A stretch of 37,514 nucleotides of DNA, from the NCBI RefSeq assembly GCF_002837145.1, contig NZ_NWMV01000101.1, positions 1-37,514 on the forward strand. The letters run 5' to 3'. The notes beneath the pieces are model-generated. The model ran no database searches and was not told where the DNA came from. It worked only from the letters and a program-made list of their open reading frames with translations. Position 1 is the stretch's first letter; each line of letters opens with the position of its first letter. Below are positions 25,499 to 31,394 of this stretch, one piece after another. Position numbers and translations under genes: made by a program. The DNA comes from Macromonas nakdongensis. Its GTDB lineage: Bacteria > Pseudomonadota > Gammaproteobacteria > Burkholderiales > Burkholderiaceae_C.

Positions 25499-27286
25499 TC
25501 AGGCGATGCCCAGGCGCTTGAGCCGGTAGGCCAGCTGGGCCCGGCTCAGGCCGAGTTGGCGCGCCGCCTCGGCCACGTTGTACCGGCTGGCCACCAGGGC
25601 GTTGCGGTAGCGCTGCGCTTCTTTGGGTTGGGGTGGCCGCGGGCGCTTCGGGCCGCTGCCTTCGGGTTCGGTGGCCGGGGGCGCGGGCTGGGGCGCCTCG
25701 GTCAGGCGGCCGCTGTGCGCCAGGCTCCAGACCTGCGGCGGCGCCCCTTCGCCACTGCGGAACAGGTGGTGCAGGTCGATCGGCTCGTCGTCCCCGGCCA
25801 TGATGACACCGCGCTCCACCAGGTTCTGCAGCTCCCGGATGTTGCCCGGAAAGTCGTACTGGAGCAGGGCCTGCACCGCGCGCGGGGTGAAGCCCGGCAC
25901 GCGCCGCCCGTGCAGCTGGCGGTAGCGGCGCAGGAAGGCCTCCATCAGCTGCGGGATGTCGTCGCGCCGCTCCTTCAGCGGTGGTAGCTGCACCGGGAAC
26001 ACGTTGAGCCGGTAGTAAAGGTCCTCACGGAAGCGGCCGCGCTCGACCTCCTCGCGCAGGTCCACGTTGGTGGCGGCCACCACGCGCACATCGACCCGGA
26101 TTTCGCGCACGCCGCCCACGCGTTCGATGCGCCGCTCCTGCAAGGCCCGCAGCAGCTTGCCCTGGGCCGCAAACGACAGCGAAGCGATTTCGTCCAGGAA
26201 CAGGGTGCCGCCGCTGGCGCGCTCGAAGCGCCCCGGGCGTGACACGGTGGCGCCGGTGAAGGCGCCGCGCTCTACCCCGAAAAGCTCGGATTCGATCAGC
26301 GTGTCGGGCATGGCCGCGCAGTTCAGCGCCACAAAGGGGGCGGGGGCGCGTGGGCTGATGCGGTGCAGCGTTTGCGCAAACAGCTCCTTGCCCGCCCCCG
26401 AAGGACCGGTGAACAGCACCGTGGCCGAGGTCGGCGCCACCCGCTCGATGAGGTGGCGCGCCGCGCTGAAGCTGGACGAAATCCCGATCAGGGGTGGCAG
26501 TTCGTCGCCGGCCGGGGCGGTGCTGTCGTCGTCGGCCAGGGGGCGGCCGATGTCGGCGATGCGCGGCGCCACCTCGGCGCGCGCCGGTGGGTTCAGTTGG
26601 CGCGCCGATGCGTCGGGAAGGAAGTGGTGCAGGTCGAGTTCCGGGTCGGGCCAGTGGTCGGCGGGGCGGCCGACGATGCGGCAGACCTCGGCCCCGGAGG
26701 CGCGGCAGCTCAGTTCGCGGAAGACGATGAGCTTGCCCATGAAGGCGCTGGCGTAACCGCTGGCGTAGCCCAGCTGCATCCAGCAGGCGGCCTCGGTGCC
26801 GATGCCGAAGGCGGCGATGTGCTCGTCGTCTTCGCTGGAGTCGTGCCAGAGGAATTCGGCGTAAAAGTCGCCGCGGCCGATGTCGAACTCGAAGGCCACG
26901 GTCTGTGGCCGCACAAAGCCTTCGAGCTGGTGCATGCGCGGGCCGGCGTCGAAGACGTTGGCCGGGTCGCTGTCGGACCACAGGGTGCGCACCAGCTCGG
27001 CGTCGCGGGCGCCAGCGGCGTAGCCCACCCGGGTCAGCAGGGAGCGGGCACCGTCCATGCCCAACCGGGCCACCAGCTCGCGCCGCAGCGAGCCGTAGGT
27101 GGACGCGCGCCACAGCAGCATGCGCTGGTCGTTGAGCCAGATGCGCCCGTCGCCCGGGGCGAACACCAGGGCCTCGGTCAGCTCGCGCAGCGTGGGCGAG
27201 GCGCCGGCGTCCAGGTCGGCGCTGGTGCGCGCCTGCACGGCGCGCTGTTGCAATTCGGCCAGGGAGATGCGGTCGGTGGGCGGCAT
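25499..27286 (-). CDS. XylR/DmpR-type sigma-54 activator, likely of the pch operon
   Basis: 595 residues from ATG at 27286. The N-terminal XylR_N sensory domain (about residues 30-140) and a V4R domain with the cysteine pair CRASGAEVC (Cys194, Cys202) are followed by a linker, an AAA+ domain with Walker A GPSGAGKE (294-301), the sigma-54-contacting GAFTGA (341-346) and Walker B TLFLDEI, and a C-terminal Fis-type HTH. Members bind aromatic effectors directly. Alternative in-frame starts at 27325 and 27388 would put the predicted upstream activator sites inside the coding region, so 27286 is preferred. Divergent from pchACXF with a sigma-54 promoter between; 4-cresol or a related phenol is the likely effector (inference). 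Confidence 0.92.
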   Translation of the reverse strand: MPPTDRISLAELQQRAVQARTSADLDAGASPTLRELTEALVFAPGDGRIWLNDQRMLLWRASTYGSLRRELVARLGMDGARSLLTRVGYAAGARDAELVRTLWSDSDPANVFDAGPRMHQLEGFVRPQTVAFEFDIGRGDFYAEFLWHDSSEDDEHIAAFGIGTEAACWMQLGYASGYASAFMGKLIVFRELSCRASGAEVCRIVGRPADHWPDPELDLHHFLPDASARQLNPPARAEVAPRIADIGRPLADDDSTAPAGDELPPLIGISSSFSAARHLIERVAPTSATVLFTGPSGAGKELFAQTLHRISPRAPAPFVALNCAAMPDTLIESELFGVERGAFTGATVSRPGRFERASGGTLFLDEIASLSFAAQGKLLRALQERRIERVGGVREIRVDVRVVAATNVDLREEVERGRFREDLYYRLNVFPVQLPPLKERRDDIPQLMEAFLRRYRQLHGRRVPGFTPRAVQALLQYDFPGNIRELQNLVERGVIMAGDDEPIDLHHLFRSGEGAPPQVWSLAHSGRLTEAPQPAPPATEPEGSGPKRPRPPQPKEAQRYRNALVASRYNVAEAARQLGLSRAQLAYRLKRLGIA

Positions 27287-27295
27287 GGCGGTGTT

Positions 27296-27330
27296 TTGAT
27301 CAATTTTTGATGATAAATGATCCATCAAAT
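27296..27330. promoter_or_regulatory. Candidate upstream activator sites for the sigma-54 regulator
   Basis: TTGATCAA (27296-27303) is a perfect palindrome, and TTTGATG (27306-27312) and CATCAAA (27323-27329) form a perfect inverted repeat with 10 bp between. They lie about 110-140 bp upstream of the predicted pchA start of transcription, the usual position of enhancer-like sites for XylR/DmpR proteins, whose known sites are rich in TTGA/TCAA. Confidence 0.55.
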
Positions 27331-27380
27331 TCGCACATGTGGATTCCACGTTTTCCCGGTGTTTGATTTGTAAGTCATTG

Positions 27381-27397
27381 ATTTTCATTGTGAAAAT
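27381..27397. promoter_or_regulatory. AT-rich dyad between activator sites and promoter
   Basis: ATTTTCA-TTG-TGAAAAT is a perfect 7+3+7 inverted repeat, centred about 49 bp before the predicted transcription start. It could be a second regulator or bending-protein site. Only the symmetry is observed. Confidence 0.35.
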
Positions 27398-27411
27398 TGA
27401 GTGCCTTGGGC

Positions 27412-27427
27412 TGGCACATGGGTTGCA
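27412..27427 (+). promoter_or_regulatory. Sigma-54 (-24/-12) promoter of pchACXF
   Basis: TGGCAC at 27412-27417, five bases, then TTGCA at 27423-27427: the invariant GG and GC are 12 bp apart, as required. Transcription would start near 27438, 37 nt before pchA. Together with the divergent GAFTGA activator this is strong support for sigma-54 control. Confidence 0.88.
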
Positions 27428-27474
27428 AAGTCGGCCGGTCTGCAATCGACACAAGACCCCACCCGAGGACCCCC

Positions 27475-28926
27475 ATGCCCACCATTTCCATGCTGATCGG
27501 CGGCGAAAGCCGCGCCGCGTCGAATGGCGCCACCTTTGAGCGCCGCAACCCCCTGGACCACAGCGTGGCCACCCGCGCGCCGGCCGCCACCGCAGACGAC
27601 GGCCGCGCCGCCGTGGACGCCGCCGCTCAGGCCTTCCCGGTTTGGGCCGCCCTCGGCCCGGGCGCGCGCCGCGCGCTGCTGATGAAGGCCGCCCACGCCC
27701 TGGAAGCCAAGGGCGAGGCCTTTGCCCAGGCCATGGCCGCCGAAACCGGTGCCTCGGGCATTTGGGCCGGCTTCAACGTCCACCTGGCGGCCGACATGCT
27801 GCTGGAAGCCGCCGCGCTGACCACCCAGATCGACGGCCAGGTCATCCCGTCCAACGTGCCCGGCAACCTGGCCCTGGCCGTGCGCCAGCCGGCCGGCGTG
27901 GTGCTGGGCATCGCCCCGTGGAACGCCCCGGTGATCCTGGGCGTGCGCGCCATCGCCACCCCGCTGGCCTGCGGCAACACGGTGGTGCTGAAGGGCTCTG
28001 AACTGTGTCCGGCCACCCACGGCCTGATCATCGAGGCCTTGCAGGAAGCCGGCCTGCCCCCGGGCGTGGTCAACTTCGTCACCAACGCCCCGGCCGATGC
28101 GGGCGCGGTGGTCGAAGCCATGGTGGCCCACCCGGCCTTGCGCCGCGTGAACTTCACCGGTTCCACCAAAGTGGGCAAGCTGATCGCGCAGACCTGCGCC
28201 AAGCACCTGAAACCCGCTGTGCTGGAGCTGGGAGGCAAGGCCCCGTTCGTGGTGCTGGACGACGCCGACCTCGACGCCGCCGTGGCCGCGGCCACCTTCG
28301 GCGCCTTTGCCAACTCGGGCCAAATCTGTATGTCCACCGAGCGCATCATCGTGGACCAGGCCGTGGCCGACACCTTCGTGGCCCAGCTGGCCGAGCGTGC
28401 CAAGGGCCTGCCGCTGGGCGACCCGCGCCAAGGCCCGGTGGTGCTGGGTTCGGTGGTGGACATGGCCACCGTGGAGCGCTGCAACGCCCTGATCGACGAC
28501 GCCCTGGCCCTGGGCGCGACGCTGGTGTGCGGCGGCAAGGCCACCGACACCTTGATGCCCGCCACGCTGCTCGACCACGTGACCCCGGCGATGAAGATTT
28601 ACCAGGAAGAAACCTTCGGCCCGGTCAAGGCCATCGTGCGGGTGAACGGCGTGGAAGAGGCCGTGGCCTGCGCCAACGACAACGAGTTTGGTCTGGCCGC
28701 CGCCGTGTTCGGTCAAAACACCGCGCGCGCCTGGCAAGTGGCCAGCCGCATCGAGTCGGGCATTTGCCACATCAACGGCCCCACGGTGCACGACGAGGCG
28801 CAAATGCCCTTCGGCGGCGTCAAAGGCTCGGGCTACGGCAAGTTTGGCGGCCAGGCCGGCATCGACGCCTTCACCGAGCTGCGCTGGATCACGGTGCAGA
28901 ACACCCCGCGCCATTACCCGTTCTGA
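27475..28926 (+). CDS. pchA: 4-hydroxybenzaldehyde dehydrogenase PchA
   Basis: NAD(P)-dependent aldehyde dehydrogenase of 483 residues, expected to oxidise 4-hydroxybenzaldehyde to 4-hydroxybenzoate in the cytoplasm. Catalytic elements: PWN oxyanion Asn150, ELGGK with Glu251 and GQICMS with nucleophile Cys285; FTGSTKVGKLIAQ is the cofactor-binding region. It belongs to the vanillin/benzaldehyde dehydrogenase group. First gene after the sigma-54 promoter, in the order ALDH-cytochrome-unknown-flavoprotein that matches the published pchACXF operon of Pseudomonas putida; the substrate call rests on that context. GAGG lies before ATG 27475. Confidence 0.9.
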   Translation: MPTISMLIGGESRAASNGATFERRNPLDHSVATRAPAATADDGRAAVDAAAQAFPVWAALGPGARRALLMKAAHALEAKGEAFAQAMAAETGASGIWAGFNVHLAADMLLEAAALTTQIDGQVIPSNVPGNLALAVRQPAGVVLGIAPWNAPVILGVRAIATPLACGNTVVLKGSELCPATHGLIIEALQEAGLPPGVVNFVTNAPADAGAVVEAMVAHPALRRVNFTGSTKVGKLIAQTCAKHLKPAVLELGGKAPFVVLDDADLDAAVAAATFGAFANSGQICMSTERIIVDQAVADTFVAQLAERAKGLPLGDPRQGPVVLGSVVDMATVERCNALIDDALALGATLVCGGKATDTLMPATLLDHVTPAMKIYQEETFGPVKAIVRVNGVEEAVACANDNEFGLAAAVFGQNTARAWQVASRIESGICHINGPTVHDEAQMPFGGVKGSGYGKFGGQAGIDAFTELRWITVQNTPRHYPF

Positions 28927-28957: not shown

Positions 28958-29269
28958 TTGAAACCGCAACACCGCCCCTGGGCTGGCCTGCTGGTCGGCG
29001 CCGCCCTGTTCGCTGGCCTGGCCACCACCGCCAGCGCCCAGACCCTCACCAAAGGCCAGCAGTTCTACCAAAAGGTCTGCGCCAAGTGCCACGAAGTGGG
29101 CACCGGCCCGGTGTTGCTGGGCCGCCAACTGCCCGAAGCCACGGTCCAGATCATCGCGCGCCATGGCTTGAACGCCATGCCCGCGTTCCGCCACACCGAC
29201 ATCGACGACGCCACCCTGCAGGAGCTGGCGGCTTTCATCCACAAGTCCCCCGCCCCGGCGAAAAAGTAA
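28958..29269 (+). CDS. pchC: p-Cresol methylhydroxylase cytochrome c subunit PchC
   Basis: 103 residues. It starts at TTG 28958, eight bases after AGAGGAGAG; no ATG fits. The Sec signal peptide ends near residue 27 (TTASAQ). The haem c motif CAKCH gives Cys41, Cys44 and axial His45, and NAMPAF supplies the likely axial Met74. The mature protein of about 76 residues matches the small cytochrome of 4-cresol dehydrogenase, which takes electrons from PchF and passes them to azurin or another periplasmic acceptor. It lies 31 bp after pchA. Confidence 0.9.
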   Translation: MKPQHRPWAGLLVGAALFAGLATTASAQTLTKGQQFYQKVCAKCHEVGTGPVLLGRQLPEATVQIIARHGLNAMPAFRHTDIDDATLQELAAFIHKSPAPAKK

Positions 29270-29282
29270 ACGGAGACCGCCC

Positions 29283-29798
29283 ATGAGCACCGATCGACGT
29301 TCGATTTTGAAAGGCCTGGCCGCCGCTGGTTTGGTGATGGCCGGCATGCCCTGGGCCCAGGCGAAGCCTGTGGCCGATCTGCCCGCCGGCGCCCCCGCGC
29401 CCCGCAGCGTGACCTCCTTGGTCAGCGGCTCGGCCCTGGACGCGGCTTTCCTGAGCGGTGTGCGCCAAGGCGCCCAAGGCGAAGGCCACGGTCTGGCGGC
29501 CCAGCCCTTGAAGGGCTTGGAAGCCGGCACCTACGCCCAGCTCAACCGCCTGCTACAAGACGGCGAACCGACCCTGCTGGTGGGCCTGCTGGACGACGCC
29601 GCCGCCACCCTGGTGCTGGACCTGGTCCGCAGCCACGGTGGCCGCGTGCTGGCCATGCAGACGCACCGCGTTGGCGCCGACGCGGCGCCTTGGGCCCAAG
29701 CCCTGGGCCAAGCGCTGGTGAGCCAACCGAACCAGGCCCCCGTGGCGCCCACCGCCCACGCCGGCCGCACCTACGTCTCTTTGAGCTGCGTGATTTGA
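29283..29798 (+). CDS. pchX: PchX, Tat-signal protein of unknown function
   Basis: 171 residues, in the position of pchX in the pchACXF operon. The N-terminus STDRRSILKG plus hydrophobic LAAAGLVMAG and AQA at 25-27 is a twin-arginine signal. The mature part has no cofactor motif; it shows an Ala/Leu/Gly-rich domain with LLVGLLDDAAATLVLDLVR and ends in AGRTYVSLSCVI. Function is not known. Since PchF has no signal peptide but must meet a periplasmic cytochrome, a role in PchF export, folding or flavinylation is a reasonable guess. It lies 13 bp after pchC and 36 bp before pchF, with its own GGAG site. Confidence 0.8.
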   Translation: MSTDRRSILKGLAAAGLVMAGMPWAQAKPVADLPAGAPAPRSVTSLVSGSALDAAFLSGVRQGAQGEGHGLAAQPLKGLEAGTYAQLNRLLQDGEPTLLVGLLDDAAATLVLDLVRSHGGRVLAMQTHRVGADAAPWAQALGQALVSQPNQAPVAPTAHAGRTYVSLSCVI

Positions 29799-29834
29799 GC
29801 GCGTTGAACCCGCGCCGATAAGAGGAACCCCGCC

Positions 29835-31394
29835 ATGAGCACCCAACCCCGCAAATACCTCGCCTTGCCCAAGGGCGTGAGCGAAAACCGCTTCGACGCG
29901 GCGATCAAGAAATTCCAGGCCGCCCTGGGCACCGAGCAGGTGCTGTTCTCGGCCGAACACCTGGCCCCCTACACCAAGGTCATGATGGCCGTGGACAGCG
30001 CCCAGCACACCCCATCCGCCGTGCTCACCGCCACCAGCGTCGAGCAGGTGCAGGCCGTGGTCAAGATCTGCAACGAGTACCGCATTCCGGTGTGGACCAT
30101 CTCCACCGGCCGCAACTTCGGTTACGGTTCTGCCGCCCCGGTCGAGCGGGGCCAGATCGTGCTGGACTTGAAGAAGATGAACAAGATCCTGCACGTGGAC
30201 CCCGAACTGTGCACCGCGCTGGTCGAGCCCGGCGTGACCTACCAGGACTTGTACGACTACATTGAAGAGCGCAAGCTGCCGTTGATGCTGTCGTTCTCGG
30301 CGCCGTCGGCCATTGCCGGCCCGTTGGGCAACACCATGGACCGTGGCGTGGGTTACACCCCCTACGGCGAACACTTCCTGATGCAGTGCGGCATGGAGCT
30401 GGTGCTGGCCAACGGCGACGTGCTGCGCACTGGCATGGGCGGCGTCAAGGGCGACAAGGCGTGGCAGGTGTTCAAGTGGGGTTACGGCCCGACCCTGGAC
30501 GGCATGTTCACCCAGTCCAACTACGGCATCTGCACCAAGATGGGCTTCTGGCTGATGCCCAAGCCCCCGGTGTTCAAGCCGTTCGAGATCAAGTTCGACA
30601 ACGAAGCCGACATCAACGAGATCGTCGAGATGCTGCGCCCGCTGCGCATCGCCAACATCATCCCCAACGCGGTGGTGATCGCGGGCACGCTGTGGGAAGC
30701 CGCCACCTGTGGCACCCGCCGCTCCGACTACACCACCGCACCGGGCGCCACACCGGACTCCGTGCTGGCCCAGATCCGCAAAGACAAGCACCTGGGTGCC
30801 TGGAACGTGTACTGTGCCCTGTACGGCAGCCCTGAGCAGGTGGAAGTGAACTGGAAGATCGTTACCGAGACCATCAAGCGCGCTGGCAAGGGCCGCATCG
30901 TGACGCAGGAAGAGGCCGGTGACACCCAGCCCTTCAAGTACCGTGCCCAGTTGATGTCGGGCGTGCCCAACCTGCAAGAGTTTGGCCTGTACAACTGGCG
31001 TGGGGGCGGTGGCTCCATGTGGTTCGCCCCGGTGAGCCAGGCCCGTGGCAGCGAGTGCGACAAGCAGTTCGCGCTGGCCAAGAAGATCCTGAACAAGCAC
31101 GGCCTGGACTACGTGGGCGAGTTCATCGTCGGCTGGCGCGACATGCACCACGTGATCGACGTGCTGTACGACCGCACCAGCGAAGAAGAAACCCAGCGCG
31201 CCAACGCCTGCTTCGCCGAACTGCTGGACGAGTTTGAGAAAGAAGGCTACGCCGTGTACCGTGTGAACACCGCCTTCCAGGAGCGCGTGGCGCAAAGCTA
31301 CGGCCCGGTCAAGCGTTCGGTGGAACGCAAGATCAAGCGCGCCCTTGACCCGAACGGCATTCTGGCCCCGGGCAAGAGCGGCATCCGCATCTGA
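29835..31394 (+). CDS. pchF: 4-cresol dehydrogenase (hydroxylating) flavoprotein PchF
   Basis: 519 residues of the vanillyl-alcohol-oxidase family. It oxidises 4-cresol to 4-hydroxybenzyl alcohol and then to 4-hydroxybenzaldehyde, using water as the oxygen source. FAD domain: TISTGRNFGYGSAAP; the QEFGLYNWRGGGGSMWFAP segment carries Tyr386, matching the covalent FAD-tyrosine (Tyr384) of the P. putida enzyme with an offset of 2. With the same offset Tyr97, Glu382, Trp396, Glu429, His438, Asp442, Tyr475 and Arg476 match active-site residues I recall as Tyr95, Glu380, Trp394, Glu427, His436, Asp440, Tyr473 and Arg474. The C-terminus reads PGKSGIRI where PGRSGI is remembered, and is shorter. No signal peptide is present. 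Confidence 0.93.
   Translation: MSTQPRKYLALPKGVSENRFDAAIKKFQAALGTEQVLFSAEHLAPYTKVMMAVDSAQHTPSAVLTATSVEQVQAVVKICNEYRIPVWTISTGRNFGYGSAAPVERGQIVLDLKKMNKILHVDPELCTALVEPGVTYQDLYDYIEERKLPLMLSFSAPSAIAGPLGNTMDRGVGYTPYGEHFLMQCGMELVLANGDVLRTGMGGVKGDKAWQVFKWGYGPTLDGMFTQSNYGICTKMGFWLMPKPPVFKPFEIKFDNEADINEIVEMLRPLRIANIIPNAVVIAGTLWEAATCGTRRSDYTTAPGATPDSVLAQIRKDKHLGAWNVYCALYGSPEQVEVNWKIVTETIKRAGKGRIVTQEEAGDTQPFKYRAQLMSGVPNLQEFGLYNWRGGGGSMWFAPVSQARGSECDKQFALAKKILNKHGLDYVGEFIVGWRDMHHVIDVLYDRTSEEETQRANACFAELLDEFEKEGYAVYRVNTAFQERVAQSYGPVKRSVERKIKRALDPNGILAPGKSGIRI

Follow-up and report, generated by a model that had tools for sequence, protein, structure and literature searches.

How does the flavoprotein subunit of p-cresol methylhydroxylase (PchF), which lacks a signal peptide, reach the periplasm? 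In P. putida the enzyme lies in the periplasm (Hopper 1985, cited in PMC12724174), and the passage of its signal-less subunit has been a gap ever since this location was determined (1985) and the genes were sequenced (1994; dates as cited in PMC12724174). The window analysed here, a stretch of 37,514 nucleotides from Macromonas nakdongensis, carries pchA, pchC, pchX and pchF as consecutive genes, all on its plus strand. The twin-arginine translocase (Tat) carries folded proteins together with partners that have no signal, and a first-pass annotation of this locus had proposed that PchX may take folded PchF across the membrane in this way. The features concerned are:

27397..28926, plus strand: ORF of a pchA-type aldehyde dehydrogenase, upstream of pchC; its real start is probably internal to the listed ORF
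28958..29269, plus strand: pchC, cytochrome c subunit (TTG start, 103 aa, CAKCH, Pfam Cytochrome_CBB3 with E 5.7e-18)
29283..29798, plus strand: pchX, proposed Tat carrier of PchF (ATG start, 171 aa)
29283..29363, plus strand: Tat-type signal peptide of PchX, residues 1-27 (from the sequence; PF10518 and TIGR01409 matches below cut-off)
29292..29312, plus strand: twin-arginine motif DRRSILK, PchX residues 4-10 (67-row alignment)
29835..31394, plus strand: pchF, flavoprotein subunit of p-cresol methylhydroxylase (519 aa, without signal peptide)

The window PchF, which begins with MSTQPRKYLALPKG, is closely related to the flavoprotein of P. putida (PDB 1dii; E 9.3e-280). Its Tyr386 within GLYNWRG was taken, by placement in the sequence, as the flavin-linking tyrosine, the number of which in P. 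putida PchF is given in PMC12724174. The PchF sequence, the adjoining cytochrome subunit and the tyrosine at the flavin-linking place together identify the enzyme as a p-cresol methylhydroxylase. PchC had been described as carrying a Sec signal and a haem c motif, and both were found again: the N-terminus is of Sec type as judged by eye, and CAKCH is present. A search for TatC in the host genome detected it with E 2.2e-61. The pch genes adjoin a divergent, regulator-like ORF on the minus strand (25499-27454), the GAFTGA of which is presumably of the sigma-54 activator type.

PchX starts with a Tat-type signal (MSTDRRSILKGLAAAG...AQA-K), and its N-terminus through the signal end reads MSTDRRSILKGLAAAGLVMAGMPWAQA-KP. 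The motif DRRSILK noted at first pass was confirmed, with RR at residues 5-6 followed by an uncharged stretch and then by AQA, after which the signal would be cut. Pfam TAT_signal matched residues 4-20 (E 0.0095, 16.3 bits; cut-off 22.7) and TIGR01409 residues 3-22 (16.3 bits; cut-off 16.7); as both scores lie below the curated cut-offs, the window PchX taken alone is a borderline call. Among ten PchX relatives scanned, L003 scored above the TIGR01409 cut-off and none above that of Pfam.

Absence of the RR from most PchX homologues was the finding that the first-pass annotation had named as speaking against export by PchX. A PchX profile built from the body alone, with the signal removed, was run on the ORFs of L002-L089 and L126-L165 and matched 87 ORFs; one had an unreadable N-terminus and RR was present in all 86 readable ones, which are also on our PchX list (see below). 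The proposal thus withstood this test. By comparison, the chance rate of our loose Tat test is about 5-6%: of the 383 crude ORF calls of at least 300 aa from 80 loci (L010-L089), 34 passed it, 15 of them being PchX itself, as did 12 of 199 ORFs of 120-300 aa outside the PchX stretch. The last profile, run also over L196-L275, matched 112 ORFs forming 42 groups at 50% identity, with RR in 111 and one unreadable; this count is looser, as RR was accepted anywhere from 75 residues ahead of the body to the first few residues of the body itself. The PchX list of 114 proteins was compiled by place and signal, with 88 linked by profile to the window's PchX body and 26 by position and signal only. The wider list has RR in 114 of 115 entries and KR in one, a count that is circular because the list was compiled by place and Tat signal. 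Its motif consensus over the 115 entries, [STDE]RRx[LFV][LI]KG, closely resembles S/T-R-R-x-F-L-K, the Tat consensus that published abstracts state.

In the 67-row PchX alignment, the rows of which are 20-61% identical to the window PchX, no column is invariant except R5 and R6. Tblastn of PchX on the plasmid records gave no match at E 10 although some of these records hold PchX-like genes, so the PchX body diverges fast. Among 60 relatives of the window's genome, PchX was detected in one, the own genome. In three PchX genes KR replaces RR (L138, MNKREFLQL; L238, VSKRQFLTG; L266, VNKREFLAG); all three accompany a distant PchF, and we count them against PchX as a carrier.

The reported lack of a signal peptide on PchF held as well. 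A crude hydrophobicity test on the N-termini of 143 PchF genes flagged six; those of L005 and L143 are RR signals, and those of L066, L073, L153 and L162 look by eye like stretches of the mature protein. In the crystallised PchF chain (PDB 1dii, 521 residues) an LP lies at 9-10, compared with 10-11 in the P. putida gene (L024), a shift that fits loss of the Met only and no cut leader. By sequence, the signal is found on one partner only, as in a hitchhiker pair, with RR on PchX and none on PchF.

Loci were collected with PchF. Eight plasmid-record regions and 13 more were picked from 351 matching records, and the best 80 of 543 PchF relatives were taken from genome contigs. A survey of the class revealed at least 22 places in at least 11 of 369 genomes and a survey of the phylum at least 13 places in at least 9 of 398 genomes, each including the own genome; a one-family survey contributed 80 of 85 places listed in at least 53 of 397 genomes, and 3 of the other 5 had already been collected. 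Survey counts are lower bounds, because genome-wise searches score at most a few candidates per genome. PchX calls in L196-L275 were made by place and the loose Tat test; spurious patterns (including L205 and L209) were struck by hand, as were false own signals at L259, L264 and L265. Before the route count 19 of 232 rows were dropped, leaving 213 assessable rows. Eighteen were removed by hand because the contig ended there, a flank was missing or could not be read, an insertion intervened or the gene was one more partial copy (a single row: L007 (minus copy), L047, L072, L135, L153, L154, L220, L229, L231, L234, L243, L254, L267, L270; two rows each: L134, L157); all 18 scored 'none' and seven have a cytochrome. 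L043, dropped as a partial gene, bears an RR PchX. At L157, on pBN3 of Paraburkholderia aromaticivorans, the gene of an IS5-family transposase abuts a shortened PchF start, and no PchX was found there. Eight rows were set aside by hand as second copies.

Related gene sets for the most part either retain a PchX or have the same kind of signal on the enzyme itself. The 183 assessable rows with a linked cytochrome comprise 152 with RR-PchX, three with KR-PchX, 18 with an own signal on PchF, seven second copies, which sit in a cluster already having a carrier or an own signal, and three with neither, so that 173 of the 183 have one route or the other. With the 18 hand-dropped rows and L043 restored, a route is found in 174 of 191 cytochrome-linked rows and none in 17. 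Among the 30 rows without an adjoining cytochrome on the same strand, 16 have neither route, 12 have PchX, one has an own signal (L204) and one is a second copy; the 16 may be cytoplasmic oxidases. Common descent means that the rows do not count as independent events, and since some genomes were sampled twice (e.g. L057/L126, L056/L128), clustered counts are safer. Clustering at 80% gave 97 groups: 58 PchX, six own signal, three KR, two none and six second copies with a linked cytochrome; four PchX, one own signal, 16 none and one second copy without.

Six loci count against PchX as a carrier in addition to the KR genes. L245, L256 and L271 are cytochrome-linked and have neither PchX nor an own signal in reach, and in L144, L145 and L155 PchX follows PchF and no cytochrome was found nearby. 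At L153, also among the 12 PchX rows without an adjoining cytochrome, a cytochrome lies further down the same strand. The gene order is variable (C-X-F, X-C-F, X-F-C, F-C-X); in many loci of the order F-C-X, X begins before C has ended. Two PchF genes but only one PchX were found in each of the stretches L083 and L129-L132, where the two flavoproteins might share a carrier. Upstream of PchF in L067, a short PchX and a cytochrome share one frame with no stop between them and an internal second signal; either the genes are fused or the assembly of this metagenome bin is wrong here.

At 19 loci the RR signal is on PchF itself, and PchX was found neither by place nor by profile. In Novosphingobium ES2-1 (L005) pchX is missing from its place and PchF begins with MSDLNLDRRGLLGAGIIGAASLGLGTGASA; the same arrangement was found in G705 (L143) and in 15 loci of that family (L196-L210), while L224 and L225 have an RR-signal PchF on another branch of the PchF tree. 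The body profile gave no PchX match at these 19 loci; since short PchX proteins of other Sphingomonadales escape it as well, the absence of PchX rests on place too. None of the 213 assessable rows was scored with both PchX and an own signal, loose hits having been struck by hand. A quick-search PchF tree of 97 groups (LG+G4) requires at least two changes of the own-signal state; a sign test of signal in cis against signal in trans has only two independent pairs and thus no power. With the signal on PchF the carrier can be lost, which indicates the purpose of PchX, at least in those lineages. In L143, L198, L199 and L200 the RR signal of PchF ends in LASC-D, a lipobox-like site, and these PchF may be membrane-anchored Tat lipoproteins.

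The published suggestion for a related enzyme is another one. BpfAB, a PCMH relative of Sphingobium yanoikuyae, has a SignalP 6.0 signal in the cytochrome BpfB and none in BpfA, and the 2025 bisphenol F paper credits the cytochrome's signal, which was suggested to guide the complex (PMC12724174). The FAD protein of S. yanoikuyae SJTF8 has 100% homology to BpfA according to the same paper. In our sample, the gene right after the cytochrome of SJTF8 (L007) encodes MSAIEVTRRVALGAGALGVGAVALSS..., an RR protein of 189 aa, which speaks against guidance of PchF to the periplasm by the Sec signal of the cytochrome. The own-signal loci do so as well: the cytochrome adjoins PchF on the same strand in 16 of the 17 loci L005, L143 and L196-L210 (opposite strand in L204), and of the cytochrome N-termini inspected at 16 own-signal loci most are signal-like by eye, yet PchF still has its RR, so the cytochrome signal does not serve PchF there. 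Moreover, the Sec translocase threads polypeptides in an unfolded state, and c-type cytochromes receive their haem on the outer side; a protein that has already folded can therefore not accompany the cytochrome. We give hardly any credence to this route.

The tyrosine at the flavin-linking place is absent in all 19 own-signal PchF; signal in cis and missing tyrosine co-occur, by function or by descent. That every PchF doing without PchX lacks the tyrosine would fit a PchX that helps to insert the flavin or to bond it covalently and is exported for that work, and so would the conserved D104, R116 and H128 of PchX. PchX accompanies a tyrosine-bearing PchF in 90 rows and a tyrosine-less PchF in 74 rows, though, and is therefore not tied to the covalent bond alone; a cytoplasmic factor, moreover, would need no conserved Tat signal. 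PchX as a flavin factor is in our judgement highly improbable. As the own-signal PchF all lack the tyrosine, PchX may still have some further role in the covalent enzymes.

The mature body of PchX was predicted as alpha/beta, with alternating strands and helices and a body pLDDT mostly of 91-97. R116, F56, L91, D104, H128 and G142 are conserved body residues in the 67-row alignment, so PchX may do more than carry a signal. The description of PchX as a protein of unknown function agrees with its annotation: annotated records label pchX 'hypothetical' and one calls it a Tat-signal protein, and Pfam and NCBIfam name no functional family in 11 PchX. For the window PchX, only Tat-signal models appeared up to E 1; for ten others, up to E 0.1, we found Tat models, formate_TAT below cut-off, one weak DUF6325 or nothing. 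There was no match to the gamma-subunit/gluconate 2-dehydrogenase subunit 3 family in the 11 PchX with Pfam and NCBIfam; PF13618, which we take to be the gamma family, should be contained in the libraries scanned. Foldseek with the PchX model detected nothing at E 0.001 or below, and no hitchhiker protein was among the fold matches listed for the model. A ribose-binding protein was the best VIA match (Z 8.8), in or near the range that the tool calls common, and no function was read from it; PDB matches to designed armadillo proteins were judged to reflect composition.

PchX and PchF were co-folded as one read-through chain with alignment A4 (13 read-through rows and 14 PchF-only rows); a mixed alignment, A3, was dropped, as its PchX-only rows were partly aligned over PchF. 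The model reached pLDDT 73.5 and pTM 0.65 with 13 of 27 rows paired and PchF poorly modelled in places, and gave no support for a PchX-PchF complex. This result, like the confidently predicted body with its conserved residues, would suit a PchX that is Tat-exported in its own right, as third subunit, periplasmic assembly chaperone or flavin holder, with PchF taking some other route. Such a PchX leaves PchF without a signal of its own and does not predict RR-signal PchF at PchX-less loci, on two branches of the tree, and we think it unlikely.

The conservation of RR, the RR-signal PchF at 19 PchX-less loci and the contrast between routes argue for PchX as a Tat carrier, and the first two lend support to the original proposal; the second, which that proposal had not anticipated, weighs most. 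We regard PchX as very probably a Tat-signal-bearing export partner of PchF: most likely, folded PchF is exported together with PchX by the Tat signal of the latter. PchF would fold in the cytoplasm around FAD, loaded before export, and bind the PchX body; the pair would then cross the Tat translocase, in a Tat-dependent manner, by the RR signal of PchX. As for its fate after export, PchX would have its signal cut in the periplasm. PchC would be exported unfolded by Sec and become holo-PchC by haem attachment outside, and PchF would meet holo-PchC in the periplasm to form the flavocytochrome. In PchF that carry the tyrosine, the covalent link to the flavin could then be made outside, after export. 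It also seems reasonably probable to us, with less confidence, that PchX is the first of a family of carriers, in several phyla, dedicated to Tat export of the cytochrome-linked half of the VAO/PCMH flavoenzymes. Little but the RR would be fixed in this family, a cluster with two flavoproteins could make do with one carrier, and the signal would have moved from carrier to cargo at least twice, with the carrier then lost.

If PchX is indeed the carrier of PchF, the gap in the route of PchF is filled by a carrier gene present in most operons sampled here. Making these enzymes, which are of interest in cresol, lignin and bisphenol chemistry, would call for expression of pchX as the third gene, and the loci would form a natural series of a Tat signal moving between carrier and cargo. 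Our literature search, with most subscription journals outside its scope, revealed no paper on the pchX gene of the pch operon.

Known systems share parts of this arrangement. NapD-kind chaperones bind the enzyme's own signal, and in PaoABC of E. coli the Tat signal sits on a redox subunit. Like PchX, NapD-kind chaperones are small helpers of one exported redox enzyme, but they are described as staying in the cytoplasm (PMC4159696), whereas PchX would bring the signal itself. PaoABC is described as a three-part Tat hitchhiker, the signal-less subunits of which cross by the Tat signal of their partner, as proposed for PchX and PchF (PMC4273604); it belongs to a different enzyme class, and no redox motif was seen in PchX. 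The nearest model is the gamma subunit of the FAD glucose dehydrogenase of B. cepacia, called a hitchhiker protein and held to be necessary for folding and secretion of the catalytic subunit (PMC6719666). Like PchX, it is a small Tat-signal protein accompanying an FAD enzyme that passes electrons to a c-type cytochrome subunit; it differs in having five alpha-helices (PMC6719666), whereas PchX is predicted to be alpha/beta and not all-helical, and in a partner that resembles GMC oxidoreductases, whereas that of PchX belongs to the VAO/PCMH family. By this comparison, PchX fits the hitchhiker role but differs from the gamma subunit in its predicted fold and in the family of the enzyme that it would serve.
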